Positions 1 through 7,812 of a stretch of DNA of 16,980 nucleotides are shown piece after piece. The notes beneath the pieces are model-generated. The model was not told where the DNA came from, made no database searches, and saw only the letters and a program-made list of their open reading frames with translations. The translations under genes were made by a program, and so were the position numbers. The stretch comes from Candidatus Tectimicrobiota bacterium (GTDB taxonomy: Bacteria > JACPSX01): contig JACPSX010000055.1 in NCBI GenBank assembly GCA_016193065.1, forward strand, positions 1 through 16,980, read 5' to 3'. Numbering within the stretch: position 1 is the stretch's first letter; the number at the start of each line of letters is the position of its first letter.

Positions 1-1448
1 TTCCGGTCTTCCGCGGCGACCGTCAACAAGTGGCGGGGCTGGTCGCGATCAGTTACTTCCTTCCGGAGGGGCTGGCCACCAAGGTCTACGACATCAAAGA
101 GGCATTTGAGGAATACAAGCAGAAGAAGATCTTCAAGGCTCCGATCAAAGCGCAGTACGTGGTGCTTTTCCTGATGTTCACGCTCTTGATCGTGTTCTCG
201 GCCACCTGGTTTGGTTTTTATCTGGCCAAGGGGATCACGGTTCCCATCCAGGAACTGGTGGAAGGAACCCGGGCCATCGCGGGCGGCAAGCTGGACTTTA
301 CCATCAGCGCGCGTGCTGACGACGAGATCGGCATGCTGGTGGACTCCTTCAACAAGATGACCGCGGATCTTCACCGCAGCCAGCAGGAACTCGAGCGCAC
401 GAACGCGGACCTGCGCCAGACCAATGTGGAGTTGGACCAGCGCCGCAGCTACATGGAAACGGTCCTGGAAAACATCACGACGGGGGTTCTCTCTCTGGAT
501 CCGAAGGGCCGGATTACCACCTTCAACCGGGCCGCCGAGCGCATCCTGGGGATCGATGCGGCCAGCGCCAAGGGGCGGCACTATCGGACCGTTTTCCGCT
601 CCGATCACATGGATCCCGTGCGGGCTCTCATGAAAAAGATGAACGAAAACGGAGCCACGAGCACGACGGCCCAGATGCAGCTCTCTTCCGGGGGGCGAAA
701 GATCACCCTGATCACCAGCGTGACTCACCTGCAGGACCGGGAGGGGAACTTCCTGGGAATGGTCATCGTGTTTGACGATTTGAGCGAGCTCATCAAGGCC
801 CAGAGGACCGCGGCCTGGCAAGAGGTGGCCCGGGGAATTGCTCACGAGATTAAGAACCCCTTGACCCCCATTCAGCTCTCCACCCAGAGACTCCGCAAGA
901 AGTTGGTGGAGGTCATCAAAGGGATGGTTGACGAGTTTTCGAAATTCGCCCGCATGCCCCTGCCGAACCCCAAACCCAACAATCTGCATCAGATCATTGA
1001 GGACGCCACGGGCCTGTACCGGACTTCCGTGCGAAAAATCGAGATCACCTCGTCCTACGATCCGAATGTGCCTGTCATGGAGCTGGATCGCGAGCAGATG
1101 CAAAGGGTGTTCATCAACCTGCTGGAGAACTCGGTGGATGCCACACAGGGGAAGGGACGCATCGAGATCCGGACCTCCCTGGACGCGCAGCGCCAGAGGG
1201 TCTCCATCGAGGTGAGTGACGACGGGGTCGGCATTCCCGCAGAGGACCGGGACAAGCTCTTTGCGCCGTACTTTTCCACGAAGAAGAGGGGTACGGGATT
1301 GGGACTTGCCATCGTCCAGCGAATCGTGGCGGATCATAACGGCACGGTCTACGTGCAGGATAACAAACCCCGCGGCACGAAATTCGTGATTGAACTTCCT
1401 CTGGGACCCCACAAGGCCCAAGCCAGCAAGAAGATCATTTCGGTCTAG
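1..1448 (+). CDS. ntrY: NtrY-like membrane sensor histidine kinase, 5' end outside the window, DHp domain shortened
   Basis: The frame is open from base 3, so the gene starts upstream; the GTG at 30 is internal. In order I see a transmembrane helix (about 150-230), a HAMP domain with a DDEIGMLVDSFN core (about 230-390), a coiled-coil-like stretch, a PAS domain (about 450-770), a phosphotransfer motif AHEIKNPLTP with its histidine codon at 843-845, and a HATPase_c domain with N box NLLENSVDA (about 1117-1143), DDGVGIP and GTGLGLAIV. The AWQEVARGIAHEIKNPLTPIQLS signature is typical of NtrY. NtrY kinases autophosphorylate and pass phosphate to NtrX. Oddity: between RLRKK and VEVIKGMVDEFSKFARMP (near 900-908) about 21 residues usual in the family are missing, so the two DHp helices are abnormally short. 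It ends 13 bases before its cognate regulator. Family call is strong; activity is uncertain. Confidence 0.9.
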   Translation, partial: PVFRGDRQQVAGLVAISYFLPEGLATKVYDIKEAFEEYKQKKIFKAPIKAQYVVLFLMFTLLIVFSATWFGFYLAKGITVPIQELVEGTRAIAGGKLDFTISARADDEIGMLVDSFNKMTADLHRSQQELERTNADLRQTNVELDQRRSYMETVLENITTGVLSLDPKGRITTFNRAAERILGIDAASAKGRHYRTVFRSDHMDPVRALMKKMNENGATSTTAQMQLSSGGRKITLITSVTHLQDREGNFLGMVIVFDDLSELIKAQRTAAWQEVARGIAHEIKNPLTPIQLSTQRLRKKLVEVIKGMVDEFSKFARMPLPNPKPNNLHQIIEDATGLYRTSVRKIEITSSYDPNVPVMELDREQMQRVFINLLENSVDATQGKGRIEIRTSLDAQRQRVSIEVSDDGVGIPAEDRDKLFAPYFSTKKRGTGLGLAIVQRIVADHNGTVYVQDNKPRGTKFVIELPLGPHKAQASKKIISV

Positions 1449-1461
1449 GGGAGGAAGCATC

Positions 1462-3663
1462 TTGAAAAAGGGCAGTATTCTGATCGTCGATGACGAGAAG
1501 TCCATCGTTTCCTCCCTGGAGGGAATTTTGGAAGACGAGGGCTTTCAGGTGATCAGCGCCAAGGATGGTCAGCAGGCCCTGCAGATTATCCGGGGGCAAA
1601 ACCCCGACCTGGTCCTCCTGGACATCTGGATGCCGGGAATGGACGGCATCGAGGCTCTGCAGGCCATCAAGAACCTGAGGGCCGACCTGGGAGTCATCGT
1701 CATGTCCGGCCACGGCAGCATCGATACGGCCGTCAAGGCCACCAAGCTTGGTGCTTTTGATTACATCGAGAAGCCTCTCTCGATGGACAGCCTCCTCCTT
1801 ACCGTGAAGCACGCCCTGGAACAGCAGCGGCTTTTGCGACAGAATGTGGAGCTGAAGCGCAGAGCCAACAAGGGGGAGAATCTGGTCGGCGAGAGTTCCC
1901 GGACCCTGGCGGTCCGCAAAAGGGTTGCAGCCGCGGCCCGGCGGGATGACCCGGTCATGATCCTGGGTGAAAACGGGACCGGAAAGGAACTGGTGGCGAG
2001 GCTGATCCATCGGGAAAGCGGGCGGCGGGATGCCCCGTTTGTCAAGCTGAACTGCTCGAGTCTCCCCGCCGAGGATTGGAAACGAGTCTTGTGGGGGGCC
2101 GAGGGAGCCGCCTCCAAAGAAGGGGAATTCACCCAGGGGAAGCTCGCCCAGGCCGAAGGGGGCACCCTGTTCTTGGACGACGTGGAATATCTGGGGCCGG
2201 AGATCGAGGCGGCCCTGGCCCGCTCTCTGAAGAGCAAAACCTTTACCAGGGCAGGCAGGTCCGAAACTCTCCCCCTGGACGTGCGGATTATGGCCGCCAC
2301 CACCAAGCCCTGGACCCGCGGAGATCTGGTCGGCAACCTGTCCTCCGAGTTCCTGGCCTTGTTTTCCTCTGCGCCGATCCAACTGCCTCCGCTGCGCCAG
2401 CGCAAGGAGGACATTCCCGCGCTGGTAGATCATTTTCTCCGGGAACTGGCGGAGGAATACGGCAGGGGGAGCAAGGAGATGGATGAAGCGGCCATGCAGA
2501 TTCTGATGAATCATGACTGGCCCGGCAACGTGAAGGAGCTGCAGAACATCCTGGAGCGGATCTTCATCACAGTACCCTGGGCCCGGATTTCGCGGGAGGA
2601 TATCCCCGCCGCGATCCGCAAGAACCCGGCACTGGCCGGAAACGGGTCCGCGTGGGACGGCGCGCAGTCACTGAAGGATGCCCGCAGGTTGTGGGAGCGG
2701 GAATTCATCGGCTACAATTTGCGCCGCCATCGCGGCAGCCTGGCCAAAACGGCCGGGGAGCTTGGGATTTCTGTTCCCAGCCTGGAGCAGAAGATCAAAT
2801 CTCTGAAAATCTTCGTTCCCAGGAGGGGTGAGTTCCAACCTCAAAGGAGCCTGAAGAGAAGCGTGGTGCTGTGCGGACAGGGGCTCCACTCCGGACTCAA
2901 GGGCGGGTTGATACTGAACCCCCTGCCTCCCAACAGCGGGATCCATTTCGGGAACATCACCTCGGGCGAGAGTATCCCGGCCTTGGTGGATTACGTCTAT
3001 TCAGCGGAGTACGCGACCTCTTTGCGAAGGGGCGTTGTGATTGCCCGCACCATCGAGCACTTGATGGCTGTCCTGCACATGTACGGAATCTCGAACCTGC
3101 TGGTCAAGATCAACGATGAGGTCCCCATCATGGATGGCTCGGCGCTGGACCTGTGCCAGTTGATCGAGGATGGCGGCGTCGAGGAACAGGGGGCGGAGGC
3201 GGAGGAGATCATCGTGAAGGAAACCGTCACCGTGGGCAATCCGCAAAACGGCGGCAAGCACATCCGGATCGAGCCCGCGCAGACTCTTAGTGTCACCTAT
3301 ATCCTGGACTATCCTCGTCCGATCGGTCACCAGGAGTTTACCTTTACCCCCTGCGGAGTTGAGGACTTCAAGCGGGAAATCGCTCCGGCGCGGACCTTCG
3401 GCTTTCTCAAGGACATCGAGAAGCTGGAACAGATGGGGCTGGGAGGAGGGGGCCGCCTGCACAACGTGATCCTGGTGGATGAGGACAGAATCATCAACGC
3501 CCCCTTGCGGTTTCCCGATGAGTTCGTGCGCCACAAGATCCTGGACGTGCTCGGGGATCTCTACCTGCGGGGGAAGCGGATCCGGGGGAAGGTCACGGCC
3601 TGCATGACAGGTCACGCGGACAACGTGGAGTTGGTTAGGCGGATCGGGGCGGCTCAGCTATGA
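1462..3663 (+). CDS. lpxC: NtrX-like response regulator fused in frame to LpxC (UDP-3-O-acyl-GlcNAc deacetylase)
   Basis: I start it at TTG 1462 (733 aa), with GGAGG at 1450-1454 seven bases upstream; the open frame reaches back to 1390 without a ribosome site. Residues 5-125 are a receiver domain (D10/D11, phospho-acceptor D54, IEKPLS lysine). Residues 145-390 are an AAA+ domain of the NtrC family with Walker A GENGTGKE (169-176), but the GAFTGA loop is gone (212-226), Walker B ends DD instead of DE (239-240), and arginine-finger positions are S294 and L300. Residues 410-450 are a Fis-type helix-turn-helix. After a linker of about 12 residues, 463-733 is a full LpxC with TIEH (E532, H533), [20 protein letters not shown] (H691, D695) and GHADN (H718), so all zinc and catalytic residues are present. 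LpxC catalyses the committed step of lipid A synthesis. The stop overlaps purM (ATGA). Confidence 0.93.
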
Positions 3664-4636
3664 TTACCTACCGCGACGCCGGGGTAGATCTGAATGCGGC
3701 CGGGGCCCTGGTCGGCAAAATTGCGGCTCTGGCCCGATCCACGTTTCGCCCCGAGGTCCTGACGGATATCGGGGGGTTTGCCGGACAGTTTCGGCTTCCC
3801 GCCGGATACCGGGAGCCCGTGCTGGTGGCCTCCACGGACGGGGTTGGCACCAAGGTGAAAATTGCCCAATCTCTGGGCCTCCACCATACGGTGGGCATCG
3901 ATTTGGTGGCCATGTGCGTCAACGATATTGCCGTCCAGGGGGCCGAACCCTTGTTCTTTTTGGATTATCTGGCCACCGGCCGGCTCGATCTGGGGGTGGT
4001 CGAGAAGATCATCGAAGGGATCGTGCGGGGGTGTAAGCAGGCCGGGTGCGCCCTGCTGGGCGGGGAGACGGCCGAGATGCCCGGGCCATCGATGGTCGTT
4101 TCATCGAAAAGGGGGACACCGTCGTGGGGATTCCTTCCAGTGGGCTCCACAGCAACGGCTATTCCCTGGTGCGGAAGGTGCTGGAGACGGCCGGCCTTCA
4201 TCTGGAAGAGGTTGTGTCTGGGCTGGGGCGGAGTCTCGGGGAAGAGCTCCTGGAGCCTACCCGCATCTACTCCCCCCTGATGCAAGGCCTGATGGCACGC
4301 TGCCCGATCCGCGGGGCGGTTCACATTACAGGAGGGGGGTTGATCGAGAACATTCCTCGTATCTTGCCCCGGGGGTTGGGAGTCGATCTCGACCCGGGGA
4401 AGTGGAGGATCCCGCCAATCTTCGAGCTGTTGCGGGAAAGGGGCGGCATCCCGCGCGAGGAAATGTTCCGCGCCTTCAATATGGGGGTCGGAATGGTCTT
4501 GATCCTGTCCGGCAAGGATGCTGGCGAGGGTCGGGAATGGCTGCAGGGGCAAGGAGAGGAGTCCTTCCTCATCGGGGAGGTCATCGAACTGCCGGAGTCG
4601 GAGACCTGTCGGGTAAAGATCTCGGGAGGAACATGA
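3660..4636 (+). pseudogene. purM: Phosphoribosylformylglycinamidine cyclo-ligase, interrupted by an internal loss of about 64 nt
   Basis: PurM converts FGAM and ATP to AIR in de novo purine synthesis. The ATG at 3660 overlaps the previous stop (ATGA). Frame one reads 142 good PurM residues with STDGVGTK (58-65), [12 protein letters not shown] and GGETAEMPG, then goes out of frame after 4085 and would stop at 4280. The rest of PurM continues in another frame from about 4088: [47 protein letters not shown], ending at TGA 4634-4636. Between the halves the family normally has about 21 more residues (in E. coli, MYHGEDYDVAGF and onward to the EIIDG region). Adding 21 to the 142 and 182 residues present gives the usual length of about 345, so roughly 64 nt are missing. 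Everything else looks conserved and purN is intact, so an assembly error or a very recent deletion fits best. Confidence 0.88.
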
Positions 4637-5289
4637 ACATTGCAGTGCTGGCCTCGGGGCGCGGGACAAACTTGCAGGCTCTCATTGATGCGACAGAGGC
4701 GGGAAAGATCTCGGCCCGGATCGTTCTGGTAGTCAGCGACGTGGAGAGTGCCTATGCTCTGCAGAGAGCTGCCCGTCACGGGATCGAGACGCGAGTTCTC
4801 AGGCCCAAGGAGTTTCCCGACCGGGTCCGCTTCGAGGAAGAGATGGTCCGGGTTTTGCGTTCCCGACAGGTGGGCTTGATCTGCCTGGCGGGATTTATGC
4901 GGATTCTAGGGTCCACGGTGATCGAGAACTTCCGGGGCCGCATCATGAACATCCACCCCGCCCTTTTGCCGTCTTTTCCGGGGCTCCACGGCCAGCGGCA
5001 GGCACTGGAGTATGGGGTGAAGATTTCGGGCTGCACCGTCCATTTTGTCGATGAGGGGGTGGACACGGGGCCGATCATCATCCAGGCGGCCGTACCGGTC
5101 TTTTCCGGGGATACAGAAGAAAGCTTGTCCAGCCGGATCCTGGAGCAGGAGCACCGGATCTACCCCCTGGCCGTGCAGGCGTTTGTGGAAGGAAGACTGA
5201 AGATCGAAGGGAGGCGCGTGCATTTTCGGGGAGAAGAGTCCTCGCGAAGCGGGGAGGTCGTATTGTCCCCTGTCCCGCAACAGCCTTGA
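4633..5289 (+). CDS. purN: Phosphoribosylglycinamide formyltransferase (folate-dependent)
   Basis: PurN transfers a formyl group from 10-formyl-tetrahydrofolate to GAR to make FGAR, an earlier step in the same pathway as PurM. The ATG at 4633 overlaps the purM stop (ATGA) and has GGGAGGA at 4624-4630. The open frame extends far upstream, but that part overlaps purM and has no PurN similarity. The 218-aa product shows the N-terminal SGRGTN loop, AGFMRIL, the N-I-H-P-A-L-L-P signature with N106 and H108, and DEGVDTGPII with D144. These fall at the same numbers as the E. coli catalytic residues. The C-terminal tail after about residue 195 (RVHFRGEESS and onward) is not conserved, which is normal for the family. 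It is translationally coupled to purM and ends the first gene cluster. Confidence 0.96.
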   Translation: MNIAVLASGRGTNLQALIDATEAGKISARIVLVVSDVESAYALQRAARHGIETRVLRPKEFPDRVRFEEEMVRVLRSRQVGLICLAGFMRILGSTVIENFRGRIMNIHPALLPSFPGLHGQRQALEYGVKISGCTVHFVDEGVDTGPIIIQAAVPVFSGDTEESLSSRILEQEHRIYPLAVQAFVEGRLKIEGRRVHFRGEESSRSGEVVLSPVPQQP

Positions 5290-5315
5290 GAGTTCTCAAT
5301 AGAGACCCATATCAT
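5286..5315 (+). promoter_or_regulatory. Possible sigma-70-like promoter for lolA
   Basis: TTGAGA at 5286-5291 (overlapping the purN stop) and TATCAT at 5310-5315 are separated by 18 bases; each differs from consensus at one position. It sits about 60 bases before the lolA start in an 84-base gap that holds no gene. This is pattern matching only; read-through from purN remains possible. Confidence 0.4.
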
Positions 5316-5373
5316 ATCCGGAGTGGAGGATGTGAGAGGGTTGGCGCAGACGCAGAGAGGATAGGTTGACGAT

Positions 5374-6096
5374 ATGAGGCGTGGATGGTTTAATAAATTC
5401 AGCTTTGGCCTTGTGCTGGTCTCGGGTGCTGTGCTTCTGCCGGGGGCGGTAGGACGAGCCTCCGGTCCCCTTTCCCTGGCGGAAATTGTTGAGCGTGTTC
5501 AAAAGGTATACGAGCTGACTGAGGATATTTCGGCGGATTTCGCGCAGGTTTCAACCTTGAAGTCCCTGGCGGTGACGGGACCTGCCGGCGGACAGCACGA
5601 GCAACAGGCAGCGGGAAAAGTGCGAATCAAGAAGCCGGGCATGATTCGCTGGGATTATTCGAAGCCGGAGGCCCAGGTGTTGCTCAGCGACGGGAAGGTC
5701 CTGTGGCGTTACGCGTCGTCCGAAAAGGTGGCTTATAAGGATAGCCTGGCCGCGACCGGGAAAACGCCCCTTTCTTTCCTGACAGGCACGGGGAAAATCG
5801 AGGAGGATTTCAAGACCCGCCTTGTAAGTAACAAGGAGAATGTGGATCCGCGCACGTATCTGGTCGAGTTGGTTCCTAAAGAACCCTTGCCCACCGTGGA
5901 GAAGCTCTTCCTCGATGTGGACCGGGACAGCTTCTGGATCAAGCGGGTTACTTTCTGGGATCATTTTGGCAACAAGACGGCGTTGGGATTCTCCAACATC
6001 CGGTTGAATGTGGGGCTTTCCCCCTCACTGTTCCGGTTTACCCCTGCGCCGGGGGTACGGGTGGAATCCCTGCAGGGGATTTCGATTTGGCGTTGA
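5374..6096 (+). CDS. lolA: Outer-membrane lipoprotein carrier protein LolA
   Basis: LolA is a periplasmic chaperone that takes lipoproteins from the inner-membrane LolCDE complex to the outer membrane. The 240-aa product begins with a Sec signal peptide: MRRGWFNKFSFG, then a hydrophobic stretch, with probable cleavage near GRA-SG at about residue 30. The mature part has the LolA pattern: LAEIVERVQKVYE, then DISADFAQVSTLKS, then a GKVRIKKPGMIRWDY strand, then VLLSDGKVLWRY, then LSFLTGTGKIEEDF, then LFLDVDRDSFWIKRVTFWDHFGN. The length is slightly above that of E. coli LolA (about 200 aa including its signal). The start is ATG 5374 with AGG eight bases upstream. With LpxC and RseP nearby it supports a diderm envelope. 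No LolB or other Lol gene lies in the window. Confidence 0.93.
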   Translation: MRRGWFNKFSFGLVLVSGAVLLPGAVGRASGPLSLAEIVERVQKVYELTEDISADFAQVSTLKSLAVTGPAGGQHEQQAAGKVRIKKPGMIRWDYSKPEAQVLLSDGKVLWRYASSEKVAYKDSLAATGKTPLSFLTGTGKIEEDFKTRLVSNKENVDPRTYLVELVPKEPLPTVEKLFLDVDRDSFWIKRVTFWDHFGNKTALGFSNIRLNVGLSPSLFRFTPAPGVRVESLQGISIWR

Positions 6097-6164
6097 GAAG
6101 CCGCGGGTTAAATCAAATTTCTGCCCGTTCCCTCGGTCAGAGATTCAATGGTAGGGGATGGTAA

Positions 6165-7229
6165 ATGACCACGATCTTGAGTGCTGTCCTGGCCCTGGGG
6201 ATTTTGATTTTCGTGCACGAACTGGGGCATTTCCTGGTGGCCCGCCGCCTGGGTGTGGGGGTTGAGAAGTTTTCCCTTGGTTTTGGCCCGAAACTGCTGG
6301 CCACACGAAGGGGGGAAACCGAGTACCGCATTTCTGCGGTTCCCCTGGGCGGATATGTGAAGCTTGCCGGCGAGAATCCCGATGAGGAATGTGCCGATCC
6401 GAAGAAGTCTTTCTCGGAAAAGCCTGTGTGGACGCGGATCGCCATTGTTTTGGCCGGACCGATCTTTAACCTCCTGTTTGCGGCTGTTCTTTACGTGACG
6501 GTCTTCATGGTCGGAGTGCCCGTGTTGACGACGGAGATTCGCGGGGTGGCTCCGGGGTCTTCTGCTATGCAGGCGGGGCTGCAAAAGGGGGACCGGATCG
6601 TGGCGGTTGGCAATATCCCGGTCCAGGAATGGGAGGAGCTGGCCGACGTTATTCACCGGAGCGCGGGGAAATCGTTGGATTTCAAGGTGCGGCGGGGGGA
6701 AAATGAGTTTCATGTACCGATTACTCCCCGGGCGGATTCGGTGAAGAACATTTTCGGTGAAGAGATCGTGGTGGGCCGGATCGGTATCGAGGCGGGCGGC
6801 AAGTTCGTCACGAAGCGTTATAACCCACTGGCAGCTCTGGGAAAAGGGCTGGAGCGCACCTGGGTCATCATTAAGCTTACGGTGCAGAGCATCGTGAAAA
6901 TCATTTCTCGCGTCATCCCTGCCAGCACGATCGGGGGGCCGATTCTCATTTTCCAGATGGCCGGGGAGACAGCTCGATTAGGGCTGATCAGCTTGGTCCA
7001 CTTCGTCGCCCTGCTGAGCATCAACCTGGGGATCCTCAATTTGCTCCCGATTCCCGTTCTGGACGGGGGCCACATCGCCTTTTTTGCCCTGGAGGCCATC
7101 AAGGGGAAGCCCATCAGCTTACGAAAGAGGGAAGTTGCCCAGCAGGTAGGCTTGGTTTTGCTGATTTCGCTCATGGTCTTTGCGTTTTACAACGACCTTG
7201 TGCGGCTTTTCCTGGGATCCGCCCAGTAA
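6165..7229 (+). CDS. rseP: RseP-type intramembrane site-2 zinc metalloprotease
   Basis: The 354-aa protein belongs to peptidase family M50 and cleaves membrane-embedded substrates such as anti-sigma factors and leftover signal peptides. The first membrane helix holds the zinc motif HELGH (H18, E19, H22). It is followed by SLGFGPKLL and VPLGGYVKLAGE, a second helix (VLAGPIFNLLFAAVLYV), one PDZ domain (about 120-195, with GLQKGDRIVAV), and C-terminal helices containing NLLPIPVLDGGH, where D300 is the third zinc ligand. Having one PDZ domain rather than the two of E. coli RseP is common outside Gammaproteobacteria. The start is ATG 6165 with AGGGGA at 6153-6158. It is usually near dxr, cdsA and uppS, but here it lies between lolA and rimP. 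No sigma or anti-sigma gene in the window suggests its substrate. Confidence 0.95.
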   Translation: MTTILSAVLALGILIFVHELGHFLVARRLGVGVEKFSLGFGPKLLATRRGETEYRISAVPLGGYVKLAGENPDEECADPKKSFSEKPVWTRIAIVLAGPIFNLLFAAVLYVTVFMVGVPVLTTEIRGVAPGSSAMQAGLQKGDRIVAVGNIPVQEWEELADVIHRSAGKSLDFKVRRGENEFHVPITPRADSVKNIFGEEIVVGRIGIEAGGKFVTKRYNPLAALGKGLERTWVIIKLTVQSIVKIISRVIPASTIGGPILIFQMAGETARLGLISLVHFVALLSINLGILNLLPIPVLDGGHIAFFALEAIKGKPISLRKREVAQQVGLVLLISLMVFAFYNDLVRLFLGSAQ

Positions 7230-7238
7230 TCTTTTGTC

Positions 7239-7266
7239 TTGAAAATAAGTGGAAAGGTAGTAAAAT
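7239..7266 (+). promoter_or_regulatory. Sigma-70-like promoter of the rimP-nusA-infB operon
   Basis: TTGAAA at 7239-7244 and TAAAAT at 7261-7266 are 16 bases apart; each differs from consensus at one position. The site begins ten bases after the rseP stop and implies transcription starting near 7273, giving a leader of about 75 bases before rimP. Position, spacing and the local AT-rich composition make this the best promoter in the window. Confidence 0.68.
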
Positions 7267-7289
7267 TGACATGTTCAATATCCGCTTTG

Positions 7290-7317
7290 AAAAAGTGGGC
7301 CGGTGCCCACTTTTTTT
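7290..7317 (+). terminator. Intrinsic terminator or attenuator in the rimP leader
   Basis: AAAAAGTGGGC (7290-7300), a CGGT loop, and GCCCACTTTTT (7305-7315) form an 11-bp perfect stem whose 3' arm runs into a row of T residues ending at 7317. It lies downstream of the predicted promoter and upstream of rimP, so besides ending rseP transcripts it would attenuate the rimP operon. A similar GTGGGC/GCCCAC hairpin with a T-run before rimP is known from other bacteria (the rimP leader). Whether it is regulated is inference. Confidence 0.78.
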
Positions 7318-7347
7318 GTTCCTCTTTGATTGGCTGAGAGCTCAGCG

Positions 7348-7812
7348 ATGGTGAAACAAACGGTCATCGAGCGGGTGGAACATCTGACACGCTCCGCTAT
7401 CGAGTCCCAGGGGCTGGAACTGCTCGATGTGGAGTACAAGAGGGAAAGAGGGCGTTGGATCTTGCGCCTTTTTATTGATAAGGAAGGAGGGGTCGGGTTG
7501 GACGACTGCGAGGCCATGAGCTGCCTGGCCGGGGAGCTGATCGAGATGGAGAATGTGATCCCTCATCACTACATTCTTGAGGTCTCTTCGCCGGGACTCG
7601 ATCGGCCCCTCAGGCGGCCTCAAGACTTCTCCAGGAGTTGCGGCAAGCTGGTCCGGGTTACCACCGGGATCCCTGTTGAGGGGAGGCGGAAATTTCTGGG
7701 AAGGCTGCTCAAGTTTGAAAACAATCAAATTGTCCTGGAATCGCAGGATGGTCATTTGGTTGAACTTCCCTATGAATCTGTCACCCGAGCTCGACTCGAA
7801 GTTGAGTGGTAG
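7348..7812 (+). CDS. rimP: Ribosome maturation factor RimP
   Basis: RimP binds free 30S subunits and helps their late assembly. The 154-aa product has the RimP N-terminal domain (VEHLTRSAIESQGLELLDVEYKRERGRWILRLFIDKEGGVGLDDCE), the conserved YILEVSSPGLDRPL motif, and a C-terminal SH3-like domain ending in ELPYESVTRARLEVEW. I chose ATG 7348; a TTG at 7330 in the same frame is possible but would add only six residues. The ribosome site is weak (GAGAG at 7336-7340) and lies inside a small inverted repeat. It is first in the rimP-nusA-infB operon, with nusA 24 bases downstream. Confidence 0.95.
   Translation: MVKQTVIERVEHLTRSAIESQGLELLDVEYKRERGRWILRLFIDKEGGVGLDDCEAMSCLAGELIEMENVIPHHYILEVSSPGLDRPLRRPQDFSRSCGKLVRVTTGIPVEGRRKFLGRLLKFENNQIVLESQDGHLVELPYESVTRARLEVEW

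Follow-up and report, generated by a model that had tools for sequence, protein, structure and literature searches.

A 16,980-nucleotide stretch of DNA from a Candidatus Tectimicrobiota bacterium (in the following, the window) carries a gene in which an NtrX-like response regulator is fused to LpxC. Judging from its sequence and those of its relatives, the encoded protein is probably a response regulator with LpxC as its output domain, controlled through phosphorylation by the kinase NtrY. LpxC, the committing enzyme for the lipid A of the outer membrane, is essential and an antibiotic target; to our knowledge, its control is known in detail for only a few Proteobacteria. The features of the fused gene and its neighbors are collected in Table 1.

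Table 1. Positions of the fused gene, its domains, and the neighboring genes in the window.
Feature	Position	Strand	Remarks
NtrY-like membrane histidine kinase	30–1448	+	5' end cut by contig; HAMP, PAS, HisKA (partial), HATPase_c (Pfam)
NtrX-like response regulator::LpxC fusion	1462–3663	+	733 aa; TTG start; stop TGA at 3661–3663
Receiver domain (residues 6–115)	1477–1806	+	Pfam Response_reg, 112.6 bits
Codon of receiver phospho-acceptor D54	1621–1623	+	
AAA+ plus lid (residues 141–389)	1882–2628	+	Pfam; decayed sigma-54 activator module
Weak Fis-type helix-turn-helix (residues 411–446)	2692–2799	+	Pfam HTH_8, below cut-off
LpxC domain (residues 461–728)	2842–3645	+	Catalytic E532, H533, H691, D695, H718; Pfam, 263.5 bits
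purM (AIR synthase)	3660–4636	+	Frameshifted in contig; start overlaps fused-gene stop by 4 bases (ATGA)
purN (formyltransferase)	4669–5289	+	Conserved downstream neighbor
lolA (lipoprotein carrier)	5374–6096	+	Conserved downstream neighbor
rseP-type site-2 protease	6165–7229	+	Conserved downstream neighbor

The sequence GGGGAGGAAG is found upstream of the TTG start of the fused gene, and the frame (1462–3663) is open across 733 codons; a stop between the helix-turn-helix and LpxC parts was looked for, and none is present. The preliminary description had read the frame as a single receiver–AAA+–helix-turn-helix–LpxC polypeptide, which is borne out by the open frame and by the Pfam and NCBIfam matches, with the helix-turn-helix match falling below the Pfam cut-off (HTH_8, residues 411–446, 20.8 bits against 22). 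LpxC matches PF03331 over the full domain with 263.5 bits against a cut-off of 27, and the protein also matches the lpxC equivalog TIGR00325 (243.8 bits, cut-off 187.25). The middle is covered by Sigma54_activat (residues 141–283, 116.8 bits) and AAA_lid_14 (residues 312–389), and the best NCBIfam match of the N-terminal half is NtrX, at 373.8 bits below the equivalog cut-off of 600. No FabZ hotdog domain was matched in the protein by Pfam or NCBIfam, and LpxC is its C-terminal end. The receiver has the acid pair, phospho-Asp, Ser/Thr, and Lys of two-component receivers; in the AAA+ domain the GAFTGA loop is missing, Walker B reads DD for DE, and the sensor II Arg is replaced by Lys. The phospho-acceptor and the five catalytic residues are those named in the preliminary description and are invariant among the aligned relatives; in an alignment, the catalytic residues line up with those of solved LpxC. 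The window genome (2.9 Mb, 86% complete, 294 contigs) yielded one LpxC match and no second. Both the residues and the lack of another LpxC suggest that the window LpxC is an active deacetylase.

We give hardly any credence to the idea that two products arise from this gene, with LpxC either translated separately from an internal start or cut off by proteolysis. No support for it was found; GTG codons do occur 6–7 residues into the LpxC strand in many of the fused genes, where they encode a conserved Val-Val. The window has neither ATG nor TTG in the 25 codons preceding LpxC and no usable internal start there. Among 74 fused genes, an ATG occurs in this region in 19 and a Shine–Dalgarno-like site in 3, with no conserved position, and no usable start is conserved across the set.

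In the window, the NtrY gene is separated from the start of the fused gene by 13 bases, confirming the earlier statement that an NtrY-like kinase is encoded just upstream (30–1448), and NtrY is directly upstream of the fused gene in most lineages. The gene order in fused genomes is DUF4390–ntrY–ntrX::lpxC–(purM)–purN–lolA–rseP, with purM present in some only. NtrY is unlinked to the fused gene in one large family and in genome G104. When nine genomes with unlinked NtrY were searched, eight had a full-length NtrY (40–47% identity) elsewhere, with no receiver gene found within about 1.5 kb on either side of it, and no NtrY was found in the ninth, the draft genome G273. In the family of L164, L167, and L248, the NtrY neighbor is gone, and greA and a trmB-like methyltransferase gene, both called by eye, precede the fused gene instead.

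A search for the same domain order showed the fusion to be far more widespread than the preliminary description could know. It is the sole LpxC in about 109 genomes, nearly all of them metagenome-assembled, from at least seven GTDB phyla, including Schekmanbacteria, a Nitrospinae lineage, and a Tectomicrobia lineage. Full-length fused homologues from these three (Schekmanbacteria L002, 734 aa; Nitrospinae bacterium L003, 729 aa; Tectomicrobia bacterium L004, 720 aa) are about 50% identical to the window protein from end to end. Because they occur in three other named lineages and are joined by about 70 more fused proteins, chance or an assembly error is excluded; a sequencing or assembly artifact is likewise ruled out by the roughly 109 fused genomes. 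The fusion is not general, being found in 10 of 166 LpxC-bearing genomes in a broad bacterial sample of 192, and is near-universal among LpxC-bearing genomes of the phyla in which it occurs. It was found in 20 of 20 genomes with LpxC in the phylum of G080, in 16 of 16 informative genomes in that of G155, and in all four Schekmanbacteria genomes. In the phylum of G023 the count is 64 of 65, some assigned from just the frame length and the position on the contig and the remaining one uninformative, and in that of G002 it is two of three, the third being without any LpxC match. G003, G104, and G000 contribute one fused genome each.

None of the approximately 109 fused genomes has a stand-alone lpxC (one LpxC each), and no close relative has separate genes: in the fused phyla, all informative genomes have the fusion as their sole LpxC. 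Ten candidates for a stand-alone gene (L184, L190, L203, L207, L208, L233, L235, G289, G293, and G299) turned out to be short frames cut by contig ends. Three long LpxC frames (G086, G116, and G190) were rejected as fusions, being LpxC-FabZ with chance upstream read-through. A published marker-gene tree treats Nitrospinota, Nitrospinota_B, Tectomicrobia, Schekmanbacteria, and UBA8248 together, which fits the distribution of the fusion (PMC11009272), and the fusion may be a shared derived character uniting Nitrospinota-, Tectomicrobia-, and Schekmanbacteria-like phyla.

In a set of 74 distinct fused proteins, the two ends are conserved and the middle decays. The receiver acid pair (with D or E at position 10), D54, S82, and K104 are present in 74 of 74 proteins, as are E532 and H533 of LpxC; H691, D695, and H718 are present in 72 of 72, two truncated rows having been left out. 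In a 51-row alignment, every invariant column falls in the receiver or in LpxC. The median pairwise identity among fused proteins is 0.58 for the receiver and 0.55 for LpxC, compared with 0.26 for AAA+ and 0.37 for the helix-turn-helix. The corresponding values for 77 unfused NtrX-like proteins are 0.60 for the receiver and 0.67 for AAA+; as this set was picked by similarity to the query, it may overstate absolute identities, which leaves the difference between AAA+ and receiver inside either set unaffected. The GAFTGA loop, which contacts sigma-54, occurs in none of the 74 fused proteins versus 58 of the 77 unfused ones, a count that leaves out relaxed matches, which fell on the receiver's KLGAFDF. 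The Walker-B Glu is retained in 3/74 versus 76/77 and the sensor II Arg in 3/74 versus 75/77. A helix-turn-helix-like segment is kept in 35 fused proteins, that of the window included, and is missing in 39.

The invariance of the receiver and LpxC active sites while the middle decays points to phosphorylation as the means of control. It also bears on the idea that the fusion is inert, serving co-expression only, so that the polypeptide is a plain LpxC with a passive receiver. Fusions of neighboring genes are common, and lpxC and ntrX lie near each other in unfused relatives, but a passive receiver should decay as AAA+ does, whereas the phosphorylation residues are invariant and receiver identity is as in unfused NtrX; we therefore regard an inert fusion as very improbable. 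Of the control by D54 phosphorylation proposed in the preliminary description, the residue stands as the likely control point, being invariant in 74 of 74 proteins, while the phosphotransfer from NtrY to the receiver and the effect on LpxC are what we infer from sequence.

Nature has also provided deletions. The whole AAA+ domain is missing in 10 of the 74 proteins (L194, L198, L199, L201, L205, L206, L224, L246, L248, and L228), of which L228 has retained the helix-turn-helix. The AAA+-less forms are receiver–linker–LpxC proteins of 430–455 aa, and in the three that were run, L198 included, Pfam detects Response_reg and LpxC and no other domain. L198 is the shortest form, with 432 aa comprising the receiver, a 35-residue linker, and LpxC. 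Parsimony on a receiver-plus-LpxC tree of the 72 sufficiently complete proteins, nine of them without AAA+, gives six changes for loss of AAA+, at least four of which are forced by well-supported branches, and about nine changes for loss of the helix-turn-helix. Because the middle decays and AAA+ has been deleted repeatedly, the receiver and LpxC form, by these comparisons, the core that is conserved, and transcription can be dispensed with. Repeated loss of AAA+ and helix-turn-helix with unchanged ends implies that selection has maintained the link between LpxC and a receiver that can be phosphorylated, while the parts needed for transcription were dropped. The AAA+ deletions point to action of the receiver on LpxC.

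The same losses weigh against the protein being a trigger enzyme, that is, still an NtrX-type DNA-binding regulator in which LpxC senses its substrate and feeds back on the transcription of envelope genes. Such a role could be read from the helix-turn-helix-like segment in 35 of 74 proteins, including that of the window, from the repression of lpxC transcription by alphaproteobacterial NtrYX (PMC7240162, PMC12444477), and from the ability of regulators without GAFTGA to work at sigma-70 promoters (PMC10274813). However, the helix-turn-helix was lost about nine times and AAA+ at least four times with receiver and LpxC unchanged, the window helix-turn-helix is under the Pfam cut-off, the LpxC catalytic residues are invariant, and the fused genomes have no other lpxC, all of which makes this role improbable. 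Two routes of control raised in the preliminary description, AAA+ oligomerization and tethering to DNA, find no support as general mechanisms for similar reasons: AAA+ is either missing or has decayed motifs, and many lineages have lost the helix-turn-helix; DNA tethering is thereby disfavored. Residual DNA binding could persist in the forms that keep the helix-turn-helix, about half of the total with the window included.

In the mechanism that we favor, the upstream-encoded membrane kinase NtrY would phosphorylate the receiver at D54, and this would set the activity, stability, or membrane location of LpxC, in a direction that the model leaves unspecified. AAA+ and helix-turn-helix would be remnants of the NtrX ancestor, serving as spacer or scaffold in some lineages and deleted in others. 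Coupling by rigid helices is disfavored because the short-form linkers (35–58 aa) are disordered and often basic; docking, dimerization, or recruitment would be the coupling route in these forms. The linkers that replace AAA+ in L198, L201, and L205 are disordered and rich in Lys and Arg, and they possibly bind membrane or nucleic acid. AlphaFold predicts both domains of L198 with confidence (mean pLDDT 89.9, pTM 0.74), with a linker pLDDT below 50 at residues 131–151; the full form likewise has confident domains, at a pTM of 0.51. Given the disordered linker of the short form and the low pTM of the full form, these models do not demonstrate a receiver–LpxC interface. The LpxC model of L198 is closest to Aquifex aeolicus LpxC (TMt 0.94). 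About 21 conserved residues are specific to the LpxC of the fused clade, and the 15 of these that lie in domain I, beside the junction, form a candidate docking surface, some such residues being expected of a long-stemmed clade anyway.

Long, disordered, often basic linkers, unlike rigid allosteric couplers, would also suit a role in localization, with the receiver docking LpxC on NtrY or another membrane partner so that lipid A is made at the inner membrane, and with phosphorylation releasing LpxC. There is precedent in Neisseria meningitidis, where LpxC is recruited to the membrane by the LapB homologue Ght (PMC12444477). We consider such scaffolding rather unlikely as a separate explanation: one large family has its NtrY away from the fused gene, and release would need the retained phosphorylation residues, at which point scaffolding merges with phosphorylation control by NtrY.

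As to origin, the LpxC domains of 31 fused proteins group as a single clade apart from 62 unfused ones (SH-aLRT 100, stem length 1.26) in trees built in quick mode, and because all fused domains fall in this clade, the fusion probably arose in a single event and has since been retained. Of the 77 unfused loci, 42 have lpxC on the strand of ntrX and a few kilobases upstream of it, and many of the remaining loci are cut by contig ends. A gene-by-gene reading of one unfused locus, L016, gave the order lpxC–DUF4390–ntrY–ntrX. The arrangement of lpxC upstream of ntrYX recurs in Desulfobacterota, Rokubacteria, Methylomirabilota, and relatives (L005–L081; for example, L016 at 1665–7359). By gene linkage, then, NtrYX has a tie to lipid A synthesis in unfused genomes as well, and this linkage, common among unfused relatives, became a covalent link in the fused lineages.

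The fused protein resembles NtrX in its receiver with D54 and K104, its AAA+–helix-turn-helix order, the ntrY upstream, DUF4390 before ntrY, and the linkage to lpxC; it differs in having a C-terminal LpxC, in the loss of GAFTGA, the Walker-B Glu, and the sensor II Arg, and in the dispensability of AAA+ and helix-turn-helix. As an LpxC (PF03331, TIGR00325) it passes the family cut-offs and has all catalytic residues, but it carries an N-terminal receiver, has no C-terminal extension, and belongs to a long-stemmed clade of its own. The bifunctional LpxC-FabZ enzyme (PRK13188) likewise has LpxC joined covalently to another protein and occurs in several phyla, but there the partner, FabZ, is C-terminal and metabolic rather than regulatory, and the window fusion is without it. 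Response regulators with enzymatic output exist, among them CheB, PleD, and the HD-GYP types, in which a receiver is joined to an enzyme in place of a DNA-binding domain. Their output is a signaling enzyme, whereas that of the fused protein is an essential lipid A biosynthetic enzyme, and it is this choice of output that is new.

Known controls of LpxC rely on separate proteins, on proteolysis, or on transcription, namely FtsH/LapB/YejM in Escherichia coli, MurA in Pseudomonas aeruginosa, Ght in Neisseria, NtrYX and ChvGI in alphaproteobacteria, and DVU2934 in Desulfovibrio vulgaris, and none has a receiver in the same polypeptide (PMC12444477, PMC7240162, PMC3333781). A 2025 review of lipid A regulation covers proteolysis involving FtsH/LapB/YejM and Lon, activation by MurA, recruitment by Ght, and transcriptional control by NtrYX and ChvGI, and does not contain the words "fusion" or "fused" (PMC12444477). 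NtrYX is implicated both in the fusion and in alphaproteobacterial lpxC control; its loss in Rhodobacter sphaeroides raises lpxC mRNA 8.8-fold, with no NtrX site at lpxC (PMC7240162). For the D. vulgaris regulator DVU2934, lpxC is the single target (PMC3333781). We found no description of a receiver–LpxC polypeptide in the open-access literature, though database annotations may list the architecture. The fusion suggests a previously undescribed placing of outer-membrane synthesis under the direct control of a membrane sensor kinase. With a set of phyla in which LpxC is hard-wired to a phosphorylation switch, signal control of LPS synthesis becomes directly testable, and the natural deletion series indicates which domains matter and how a transcription factor can become an enzyme switch.

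Two further observations concern the neighboring genes in the window. Aligned with the full-length NtrY of L003, the window NtrY (30–1448) has an in-frame gap of about 21 residues in the DHp hairpin, past the H-box, and this may be a real shortening or an assembly error. The window purM consists of two overlapping frames with the N-terminal AIRS domain in one and AIRS_C in the other, and this separation indicates a frameshift in the contig.
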